Assembly (NCBI GenBank): GCA_030445245.1
Contig: JAUCSD010000001.1
Span: 248,001-312,000 of the forward strand
DNA length: 64,000 bases
Direction of reading: 5' to 3'
DNA from: Candidatus Saccharimonadota bacterium
GTDB taxonomy: Bacteria; Patescibacteriota; Saccharimonadia; Saccharimonadales; Saccharimonadaceae
Position numbers and translations under genes: made by a program. The notes below the pieces were generated by a model. The model ran no database searches. It was given only the letters and a program-made list of their open reading frames with translations, and had not been told where the DNA came from. This document shows, piece after piece, positions 39,300 to 53,336 of the stretch (position 1 is the first letter of the stretch; each line of letters opens with the position of its first letter).

Positions 39300-39500
39300 G
39301 ATTGATATTTTATTCGACCAAATTGTCAACGTGCTGGTAATGAGAGGGTCAAAGACGGCAGGTTTTCTTGAACTTTTGCAAGTTTTTGGAAATCAAAAAG
39401 TCTTTGATTCTCGCACTACCAAAGACTATATTTGAATGAAAATGTTTATTTACATCCTCGGTAGCATGATTAAGTGATTTCTCACCGCCACTGTCTCTGG
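39300..39500 (-). promoter_or_regulatory. Structured leader of rplJL (L10 leader candidate)
   Basis: Between promoter and rplJ is an untranslated leader of about 225 bases with paired elements: GTCTTTG and CAAAGAC copies (near 39350, 39401 and 39420), and CTACCG with a GGTAG counterpart. Many bacteria control rplJL by L10 binding to such a leader. Position and pairing fit; the conserved binding core was not proven by eye. Confidence 0.5.
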
Positions 39501-39514
39501 TAATGTCTACGCGT

Positions 39515-39544
39515 AGTATAACAAACCACATGTGAAAATGTCAA
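39515..39544 (-). promoter_or_regulatory. Consensus promoter of rplJL
   Basis: Minus strand TTGACA (39544-39539), 18 bases, TATACT (39520-39515). It gives a leader of about 225 bases. Confidence 0.85.
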
Positions 39545-50712: not shown

Positions 50713-51264
50713 TTACCACCAGTGGTTATCGGTGTTTGTCCGGTAGCCCCAAGCAAAATACACTCCCGCGCTTGGGTTGTAGCCATCCGTTAGAGCGAGG
50801 AGCGGATTATTTGTTATCTCTGCTGCGGGGAGTTGTGAATCATTTTTGTAGCGGATAAGTTCGTAGTCAGTGCCGTTGGATTGGTAGAGATACGTGTCGC
50901 CGTTTCCCAGTGTACTTGGCATCTGCGGAGTCTTTGATATGTATTTAGGCGAGAGACCGACAATAAAGCTATCGCCTGTAGCCTGGTCCCATCCGCACCA
51001 GTTATTGGTACAGCCACTTTGGCCTGTCGTTATAGGGTAGGTGCTATTGTCTACTTTATAAAGTTCGAGTGCTTTCGTGAGTGTTTTAAGGTCAGACTGC
51101 TCGCGTGCGAAGGTGGCGCGACCTTGAATGCCATTGTAAGCGATAATGGTAATCGCCGCTAAAATGGCGATAATAACGACAACAATCAACAGTTCAACAA
51201 TGGTGAAGCCTCGATTTATTTGTGTCGATACTGTCTTTATTTGTGTTATACCTGCCCACGTCAT
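50713..51264 (-). CDS. Type IV pilin-like protein
   Basis: 183 residues. A leader of about 18 residues ends before GFTIVELLIVVVIIAILAAI with Glu5, the prepilin motif. The C-terminal domain has a Cys pair (GCTNNWCGWD). TATACT stands six bases before the ATG. The second pilin-like gene of the window (other at 32237), without assembly genes. Confidence 0.87.
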   Translation of the reverse strand: MTWAGITQIKTVSTQINRGFTIVELLIVVVIIAILAAITIIAYNGIQGRATFAREQSDLKTLTKALELYKVDNSTYPITTGQSGCTNNWCGWDQATGDSFIVGLSPKYISKTPQMPSTLGNGDTYLYQSNGTDYELIRYKNDSQLPAAEITNNPLLALTDGYNPSAGVYFAWGYRTNTDNHWW

Positions 51265-51335: not shown

Positions 51336-51384
51336 GCTTTTCGTCCTTTTGGACTCGTCAGCATAGATATTCATCTACGGAAGC
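51336..51384 (-). ncRNA. Hammerhead ribozyme, stem III open (type III)
   Basis: The minus strand gives, in order: GCUU (stem III 3' strand), cleavage triplet UUC, a 7-bp stem I (CGUAGAU/AUCUAUG, loop GAAU), CUGACGA, a 4-bp stem II (GUCC/GGAC, loop AAAA), GAAA and AGC of stem III. Every core position of the family (CUGANGA, GAAA, NUH with H=C) is met. Predicted cleavage is between 51380 and 51379. Stem III is only 4 bp including A15.1-U16.1. It lies about 105 bases downstream of the orphan gene at 51489. Confidence 0.88.
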
Positions 51385-51484
51385 GGTGTTGACCGCCAGA
51401 TTTAACTTTTAAGTACAACTCGCGTAGTTGGACCAAGGAGACGAGCGCGAATTCACCAAGTTAAATCTACGGTCACACCGCTCC
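51379..51484 (-). promoter_or_regulatory. Long imperfect hairpin overlapping ribozyme stem III
   Basis: About 24 paired positions join GGAGCGGUGU-GACCG-AGATTTAACTT with its counterpart near 51380-51408; the inner part (about 50 bases) has further pairing. The outer arm includes the bases GCUUC that the hammerhead needs for stem III and cleavage, so the two folds exclude each other. Confidence 0.6.
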
Positions 51485-51488
51485 GCGG

Positions 51489-51971
51489 TTAAGCGTTGCG
51501 AATCGTGTAGTAGGTCAGGTAGCGTTCGACACGTGCCTTGGCCTCCTCCCAGTCGACGGTCTTGTTACGTGAGAGGACGACGGTGCTGTCTCCCGGCTGG
51601 CTGACACGTCTGAACGCCGGATCGGCCTGGAGGGCCTCGATGAGCAGGCGGTCCGCTTTCCTCGTCGGAGGCAGGATGAGGAATGACTCATCGATCGTCG
51701 TTGCCTCGAGAAGTGCCTTGATCTTTCCGGCATGCGCTACTTTCTGACGAGCAACGAGCGTTTCGATGGGTGGAGTCAGGGCGGTGACGAAGTCCGTCAG
51801 GGTGTGCCTGGGTGAGAGTGTTACCGTCACCTTGCACGCTGGACCCTGAGCAACTCCCGTGACTTCCTTGAGTTTGCTCAAAGTCACGCGGAACCTTCCG
51901 TCGGTCGGCACACACAAGATGATTAACTGACGCCGCTCTGCCAGTGGCTTGAGCGCGAACAATTCGGGCAT
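51489..51971 (-). CDS. GC-rich orphan protein upstream of a hammerhead ribozyme
   Basis: Not recognised. The Met at 51971 (AGAGAGG before it) is preferred over the frame opening at 51989, giving 160 residues: a first domain (about 1-85; LFALKPLAERRQLIILCVP, then VTLSPRHTLTDFV) that could suit a small nucleic-acid-binding fold, and a C-terminal half rich in charged helices. Composition is more GC-rich than around it. TTGACG-17-TAATAT (52180-52152) gives a leader of about 175 bases with a large hairpin. Confidence 0.6.
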   Translation of the reverse strand: MPELFALKPLAERRQLIILCVPTDGRFRVTLSKLKEVTGVAQGPACKVTVTLSPRHTLTDFVTALTPPIETLVARQKVAHAGKIKALLEATTIDESFLILPPTRKADRLLIEALQADPAFRRVSQPGDSTVVLSRNKTVDWEEAKARVERYLTYYTIRNA

Positions 51972-52035
51972 GGCGCCTCTCTTCTGCAAGCCGTCTCGCG
52001 AGTCCGCACCGGTCAGGCGCGTAAATGGTACTCAG

Positions 52036-52087
52036 CGATACGAGCAGACAATACATCCGTACGTGAATGTACAGTCTGCTCGTATCG
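52036..52087 (-). promoter_or_regulatory. Large hairpin in leader of orphan gene
   Basis: CGATACGAGCAGAC (52036-52049) pairs perfectly with its complement at 52074-52087, with a further TACAT/ATGTA inside. It lies in the leader between promoter and the ATG at 51971. Confidence 0.6.
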
Positions 52088-52865: not shown

Positions 52866-53336
52866 TCATCCGCTCAATGGTTTGCATTGGGTGAGGCCAG
52901 CATTCGTCAGTATCCGGTCGAGCTGCTGCTTCGTCGGGTTGCGAAGGTTTAAAAGCGTGTCTGGATACTTTTTGTTATCCCGGCCAGTCACTGACACGAT
53001 GTATTCTTGAGGGTCTTCCGATGTATAGCCGCGGACTTTGTACTTCCTGCCGTCACTGCCATCGAAGATGAGTGTGACATTGCAGCCTCCGACGACGGGG
53101 AGAGGGCCTGTGACGTATCTGTTCTCTTGGCCTTTGACCCTGAAAATATCAGGGGTTGCGCGTTTCCAGCCTGCCCTATGAATCCGAGCGTAGATAGCGA
53201 GGCGAATCTTTTCAGCCTCAAGATCGGCGGAATTTCGTCGTATGGCGACGAACGCGCCCGAGGTTGTGCCTGCGGTTACAACGGCACTCACGACACCGAC
53301 GAATATAAGGTGGCGTCGTGTGTATTTTTTCGCCAT
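52866..53336 (-). CDS. Membrane-anchored orphan protein, 156 residues
   Basis: Not recognised. A basic start (MAKKYTRRH) and one hydrophobic helix (about 10-30) suggest a signal anchor or uncleaved signal with the rest outside. The outer part is basic, with one GGCNVTLIFDGSDGRKYKVRG strand region and two Cys that could pair. GGTATCTCGGAA precedes the ATG. GC-richer than neighbours and inserted between rplK and nusG. Confidence 0.5.
   Translation of the reverse strand: MAKKYTRRHLIFVGVVSAVVTAGTTSGAFVAIRRNSADLEAEKIRLAIYARIHRAGWKRATPDIFRVKGQENRYVTGPLPVVGGCNVTLIFDGSDGRKYKVRGYTSEDPQEYIVSVTGRDNKKYPDTLLNLRNPTKQQLDRILTNAGLTQCKPLSG

Follow-up and report, generated by a model that had tools for sequence, protein, structure and literature searches.

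Results

A hammerhead ribozyme behind a GC-rich orphan gene

On the minus strand of the window, by which we mean the whole stretch of 64,000 nucleotides analysed, a GC-rich orphan open reading frame (ORF) is followed by a long hairpin, a type III hammerhead ribozyme and a pilin-like gene. The features, in the order of the minus strand, are:

52036-52087, minus strand: 14-bp inverted repeat CGATACGAGCAGAC...GTCTGCTCGTATCG, a possible leader hairpin upstream of the orphan ORF (sequence)
51489-51989, minus strand: GC-rich orphan ORF, 166 aa from TTG, 59% G+C (ORF list; an ATG start at 51971 is also possible)
51484-51381, minus strand: long hairpin of ~104 nt between stop codon and ribozyme (-48.1 kcal/mol, z = -6.1)
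51387-51333, minus strand: type III hammerhead ribozyme including the flanking stem III (covariance model R1, 65.7 bits, E = 7.9e-19)
51384-51381 with 51339-51336, minus strand: stem III, GCUU with AAGC, 4 bp, open end (sequence)
51380, minus strand: C17 of the UUC cleavage triplet (aligned consensus; predicted cut 3' of C17, between 51380 and 51379)
51379-51362, minus strand: stem I hairpin, 7 bp and a tetraloop or, by the family consensus, 6 bp and the six-base loop UGAAUA
51361-51355, minus strand: core CUGACGA (sequence)
51354-51343, minus strand: stem II, GUCC-AAAA-GGAC (sequence)
51342-51339, minus strand: GAAA strand between stems II and III (sequence)
50713-51264, minus strand: pilin-like gene with N-methylation motif, the downstream neighbour outside the unit (Pfam N_methyl and T2SSG)

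The ribozyme reads GCUUC/CGUAGAU-GAAU-AUCUAUG-CUGACGA-GUCC-AAAA-GGAC-GAAA-AGC, the slash standing for the predicted cut. Both the sequence and the model alignment contain the type III hallmarks, namely a CUGANGA core that joins stem I to stem II, a GAAA strand that joins stem II to stem III and, ahead of stem I, an NUH triplet, here UUC; the helices comprise 7, 4 and 4 bp, with I and II closed by loops and III open. A first, sequence-only reading of this DNA had claimed a complete set of core residues, three correctly placed stems and an open stem III of 4 bp, all of which are present at that place on the minus strand. It had also proposed that tetraloops close stems I and II, which holds for stem II (AAAA), while stem I may end in either of the two loops listed above. 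The family's commonest loop I is UGYGUR, a motif of a kind that may form the loop I-loop II tertiary contact; the window has UGAAUA at that place. From hammerhead chemistry and the aligned consensus position, the cut is predicted to fall between 51380 and 51379, in agreement with the earlier placement after 51380.

The orphan ORF has no homologue in Pfam, PHROGs, PADLOC, NCBIfam, 60 relatives, plasmids, phages or IMG/VR, nor was one found in GTDB genomes by a pattern-seeded scan. Its earlier description as a GC-rich orphan gene is therefore borne out within the databases searched, and the gene looks foreign. Its stop codon lies 4 nt above the hairpin, which lacks a U-tract and continues into CCGCUUCCGUAG; no terminator-like site was found on the minus strand at the hairpin. 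We considered reading the hairpin's 7-mers ATTTAAC...GTTAAAT as an attC site and set this aside because the two arms stay complementary for about 17 bp beyond them. Nor do the relatives support a conserved hairpin in the 5' leader (40% versus 42% in downstream genes).

The window has further GC-rich orphan genes that end in a hairpin or terminator and have no hammerhead, hence not all such genes need the ribozyme. At 52866-53336 (minus strand), a GC-rich orphan ORF adjoins rplK and has a strong 3' hairpin with neither U-tract nor hammerhead. Elsewhere in the window, a ribosomal protein L10 leader lies at 39385-39518 on the minus strand (Rfam RF00557, 66.9 bits).

Relatives and covariation of the stems

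In Rfam searches the hammerhead scored 25 bits with RF00163 (Hammerhead_1; gathering threshold 34, E = 0.0017 in a 1-kb search) and 25.5 bits with RF00008 (Hammerhead_3, in a whole-genome search; gathering threshold 48.5), the latter model giving three sub-threshold matches in the window's genome, of which the window copy is the weakest. The sequence-only reading had named the lack of an above-threshold hit as evidence against itself, and formally this is the result obtained; we nonetheless judge it to be the wrong test. A gathering threshold is a curation rule and not a property of ribozymes, and relatives with excellent structures likewise stay under the Rfam cut-off. We thus attribute the miss to Rfam models that fit this subfamily poorly. 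The covariance model R1, built from 59 aligned relatives with the copies of the window's genome left out, returns a single match in the 64-kb window, with the score and E-value listed above. It also detects a fourth copy in the window's genome (C1:858482-858541, 33.8 bits), and in all four cases a GC-rich orphan gene and then a strong hairpin directly precede the ribozyme.

The family search pattern TC-N18-CTGANGAGTCYNNNNRGACGAAA, in which only the core and stem II are fixed, gave 48 matches in 34 of 295 same-family genomes, and the reversed pattern gave none. Across the phylum, R1 found copies in 28 of 287 genomes and 25 of 248 genera. When 84,980 species genomes were scanned for exact matches to the version with the AAAA loop, 84 stretches came up, almost only from Patescibacteria: among the 80 listed, 58 carry Patescibacteria names (Saccharibacteria, Parcubacteria, Kaiser-, Falkow-, Shapiro-, Nomura-, Vogel-, Collier-, Colwellbacteria and others), 20 belong to bins named 'bacterium', several of which are the same contigs as Saccharimonad genomes from the family pattern search, and one each comes from Smithella SCADC and Mycobacterium asiaticum.

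The paired regions are strongly conserved as pairs. Stem I, which lies in the unconstrained N18, is perfect (7 bp) in 98 of 111 distinct copies, as compared with 0.85 expected on shuffling, and stem III, for which the search did not select, has at least 3 bp beyond the core pair in 102 of the 111, where about 8 are expected. Stem II is near-invariant, in part since the search pattern fixed it. In the 59 aligned copies, standard pairs fill 98% of pair cells and the covariation score is 0.785, versus 0.178 for shuffles and at most 0.102 for slid controls; changes on both sides occur in all 6 counted pairs of stem I and in 4 of 5 pairs of stem III. Alignment rows were required to have at least 6 of the 7 stem I pairs, which nearly all copies had anyway.

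We regard it as exceedingly improbable that the window's hammerhead is a chance resemblance or a decayed, inactive relic. The Rfam scores below gathering thresholds would fit such an origin, but the match to an independent model at this E-value, the intact core bases, the covarying stems of the relatives and the empty reversed-pattern control in 295 genomes all speak against it. Judged by these comparisons, the hammerhead is genuine and under strong structural selection, and it would presumably cleave itself in the cell.

Conserved placement behind genes and hairpins

Genomic context was counted at the 94-95 loci with enough flanking sequence. The nearest upstream gene lies on the same strand at 82 of 94 loci (base rate 0.65, p = 1e-6), some 12-13% of loci being without a same-strand upstream gene, and the ribozyme follows the stop codon at a median distance of 83 nt. 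Relative to shuffled sequence, the 110-nt stretches ahead of the ribozyme have a median folding z of -3.7, and 78% of them fall below -2 as compared with 23-31% of control stretches; from the last predicted base pair to the cut the median is 5 nt. G+C content is higher upstream than downstream of the ribozyme at 79 of 95 loci (p = 1.5e-12). Terminators are rarer than usual, a hairpin with a U-tract being found before the ribozyme in 8-15% of cases versus 23-31% after control genes.

The 77 upstream proteins are nearly all mutually unrelated, with six homologous pairs, and few match Pfam, among them a Csx3, one Tad4-like protein, response regulators, and SPFH and alpha-CTD proteins. In three Saccharibacteria loci (L225, L141 and L146), apparent operons with JAB, ThiF and ubiquitin-like proteins, as judged from translations, end in a hairpin and a hammerhead. 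Behind the cassettes, no other Rfam ribozyme reached its gathering threshold; at L168, 2992-3068 (minus strand), a RAGATH-10 match of 33.6 bits (gathering threshold 41.2) lies near a hammerhead unit.

Overlap of hairpin and ribozyme in the window

According to the sequence-only reading, cleavage and hairpin exclude each other. The overlap is real on paper: in the minimum-energy fold of the whole region, the outer arm of the hairpin takes up GCUUCC, and forming the ribozyme costs the hairpin 6.4 kcal/mol. It is not conserved, however, given that two sister copies pay 3.6 and 1.6 kcal/mol, that the median over 95 loci is 3.0 kcal/mol, and that at most loci hairpin and stem III are separate, the hairpin stopping before stem III. 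Hence, the overlap is probably incidental. We accordingly think it unlikely that the two folds form a regulatory switch, in which a signal or the speed of transcription would choose between cut and uncut mRNA. The fold of the window and its cost would suit a switch, as would costs above 10 kcal/mol at a few other loci; yet the sister copies, the median and the usual separation of the two elements argue otherwise, and nearest-neighbour energies leave out the loop-loop contacts that stabilise the ribozyme.

Units present or absent as a whole, and arrays

In two genomes of genus g36 (G155 and G238), a complete unit of promoter (TTGACA...TATAGT), 123-aa ORF, hairpin and hammerhead lies between the clpP stop codon and the promoter of the next gene. 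The unit is missing between the same flanks in three other genomes, G247 (89% identical downstream), G226 and G191, and in 22 relatives the match starts only past the ribozyme. The downstream gene has its own promoter after the ribozyme, which is kept in genomes without the unit. Among 28 species of the genus, copy number ranges from 0 to 9.

Some units form arrays, in which they lie about 0.6-1 kb apart and carry unrelated ORFs. In L279 (G163:C2:137500-143500), three units about 0.95 kb apart have like 5' and 3' untranslated regions and differing ORFs; their 3' hairpins are alike (GGCTTGGCGGG...CCCGCCAAGCC), and a preceding fourth unit retains the hairpin with a decayed ribozyme. L318 (G443:C16:11000-20000) packs five hammerheads into 3.3 kb, of which some have variant cores (CCGATGA), and a 172-nt stretch that contains a ribozyme is repeated there at 97%. 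One well-resolved empty site, together with the patchy distribution, suggests a self-contained accessory cassette whose 3' end is the hammerhead, and the earlier idea that the latter belongs to a mobile element fits the same evidence. Mobility would presumably be the reason for this modularity.

The clpP site also bears on the gene downstream. A ribozyme in a 5' untranslated region could, by cutting, free or destabilise the mRNA of the next gene; in the window, the pilin-like gene lies 70-75 nt downstream on the same strand, and at L134, L138 and L175 the next gene begins 20-40 nt past the ribozyme. Downstream genes are nevertheless on the same strand at 61 of 94 loci, which is the base rate of 0.65 and thus no orientation bias, many are convergent (e.g. 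tig in L133), and at the clpP site the next gene has a promoter of its own, with or without the unit. We therefore give little credence to control of the next gene, and for the same two reasons, the lack of a downstream bias and the own promoter at the one site examined, we disfavour the earlier suggestion that the ribozyme releases an RNA.

Transfer through an RNA intermediate, in which a unit-length and perhaps circular RNA is copied back into DNA as in retrozymes, would find its unit-length RNAs in arrays such as L279 and L318, where a hammerhead ends each unit, and would suit a multicopy, patchily distributed element. Retrozymes have hammerheads on both sides in direct repeats, whereas here a single ribozyme stands at the 3' side, with one R1 match in the window; a lone unit has one ribozyme and therefore could not be excised. 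Moreover, the ORFs of the units are mostly unrelated and do not form one conserved element, and the reverse transcriptase domain PF00078 has no match in the window's genome (G000), in the nine-copy genome G163 or in G155, which makes this route very improbable in our view. Equally doubtful is a recombination site acting at the DNA level, with an attC-like fold that resembles a hammerhead only incidentally. In its favour, the arrays and the sharing of one structured 3' element by unrelated genes recall integron cassettes, and short conserved 3' sequences such as TCTGCTTGTCATATTCGC recur ahead of the ribozyme. The invariant part, though, is the unpaired hammerhead core together with a loop motif of a known tertiary-contact kind, the units have their own promoters, and tyrosine recombinase genes (counted as general tyrosine recombinase matches) are few and common to all genomes checked.

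Copies in phages and in Mycobacterium asiaticum

IMG/VR contains 28 distinct hammerheads of the same form, of which 80% have a hairpin upstream (z < -2) versus 12% of controls, and in 24 of 25 cases the gene before them runs in the same direction. Since these hammerheads also lie past a hairpin and a same-strand gene, the gene-hairpin-hammerhead design may be shared with phages. At L014, L019, L085 and other IMG/VR loci, intergenic phage hammerheads of type III often occur twice per contig, each after a short hairpin, e.g. GTGTCTTCAAAGACAC.

The M. asiaticum copy (L246, NZ_LZLS01000065.1, 4499-4553, minus strand) is of the Saccharibacteria type and, with 75.3 bits, scores highest of the individually checked copies. 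The Saccharibacteria motif TCTGCTTGTCATATTCGC stands ahead of it in identical form. It is the sole copy in that 5.9-Mb genome; the island that carries it adjoins pgm and also has dnd phosphorothioation genes and a CcrB-like recombinase. Saccharibacteria live on Actinomycetota, and this one copy therefore suggests an exchange of cassettes between the two, with mis-assembly as an alternative.

Discussion

A proposed role at the 3' end of the mRNA

With this in mind, we propose that the window holds a self-contained accessory cassette, consisting of promoter, orphan ORF, hairpin and type III hammerhead, in which the ribozyme makes the 3' end of the mRNA; on balance, this is probably the correct account. 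Transcription of the gene would continue through hairpin and ribozyme, whereupon the ribozyme would fold and cut the transcript between 51380 and 51379, shortly past the hairpin. This would give the upstream mRNA a defined 3' end, made up of a strong hairpin, a short unpaired stretch and a 2',3'-cyclic phosphate, while the downstream product with its 5'-OH would be discarded. Such an end could replace an intrinsic terminator or a processing enzyme and may shield the mRNA against 3' exonucleases. The cassette would thereby gain a portable 3' end that functions wherever it lands, which would suit genes inserted beside housekeeping genes.

The conserved order of stop codon, hairpin and cut, the absence of a downstream bias and the lack of an intrinsic terminator fit a ribozyme-made 3' end of the upstream mRNA, in line with the earlier suggestion that the ribozyme sets the mRNA end. 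We infer that the RNA cuts itself in living cells, that the cut forms the 3' end and that the benefit is a more stable mRNA. Two features of the window itself count against this role: the outer arm of the hairpin overlaps stem III and could slow cleavage, and loop I (UGAAUA) departs from the family's commonest UGYGUR. Also against it speak the loci that lack a same-strand upstream gene and the orphan genes of the window that do without a hammerhead. Altogether, recurrence behind dozens of unrelated accessory genes suggests that Patescibacteria cut the 3' ends of those mRNAs by ribozyme. More tentatively, Patescibacteria and phages might use hairpin and hammerhead as a standard, host-independent 3'-end maker for mobile genes, with cassettes moving between Saccharibacteria and Actinomycetota.

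The role of bacterial hammerheads has been stated to be open (PMC6155905, PMC10085705). The present set has a uniform anatomical place, 3' of the hairpin of an accessory gene, and this makes a function directly testable: self-made mRNA 3' ends as opposed to termination or RNase processing. In the Patescibacteria, a large group in which gene exchange is poorly understood, the motif also provides a sequence tag for accessory, probably mobile, genes; standard Rfam annotation overlooks this tag. The single mycobacterial copy hints at exchange between an epibiont and its host phylum.

Comparison with known systems

In the non-subscription literature searched, no paper mentions hammerhead ribozymes in connection with Saccharibacteria, Patescibacteria or the Candidate Phyla Radiation. 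Bacterial and phage hammerheads have been described as intergenic, often clustered and flanking small ORFs of unknown function, with a relation to phages and mobile genes and an open function (Perreault 2011, PMC3088659; reviewed in PMC6155905; PMC10085705). These three papers describe neither Patescibacteria nor the gene-hairpin-hammerhead architecture, and in contrast to the hammerheads reported there, the copies in Patescibacteria have a defined place, past the hairpin behind the stop codon of an accessory gene.

The type III hammerheads of plant satellite RNAs and viroids (RF00008, sTRSV type) are alike in core and in the presence of both loops I and II, with stems I and II closed and helix III open. 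They belong to circular RNA replicons, whereas the copies in Patescibacteria are encoded in DNA genomes and stand singly at mRNA 3' ends. The latter further differ from the RF00008 type in a stem I of fixed length (18 nt) with a UGYGUR loop and in stem II, GUCC-AAAA-GGAC, and those of the window's genome score below the Rfam gathering threshold. Retrozymes and hammerhead retroelements (PMC4918200) similarly carry a hammerhead as part of a mobile unit, yet the cassettes have one ribozyme per unit and code for protein, and the window's genome has no reverse transcriptase. Intrinsic terminators share the stable hairpin past the stop codon; in the cassette, the U-tract is absent and a predicted self-cleaving RNA comes next. 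Integron gene cassettes resemble the units in their modular, unrelated accessory genes, common structured 3' element and arrays, but the units described here have their own promoters, and their 3' element is a ribozyme.
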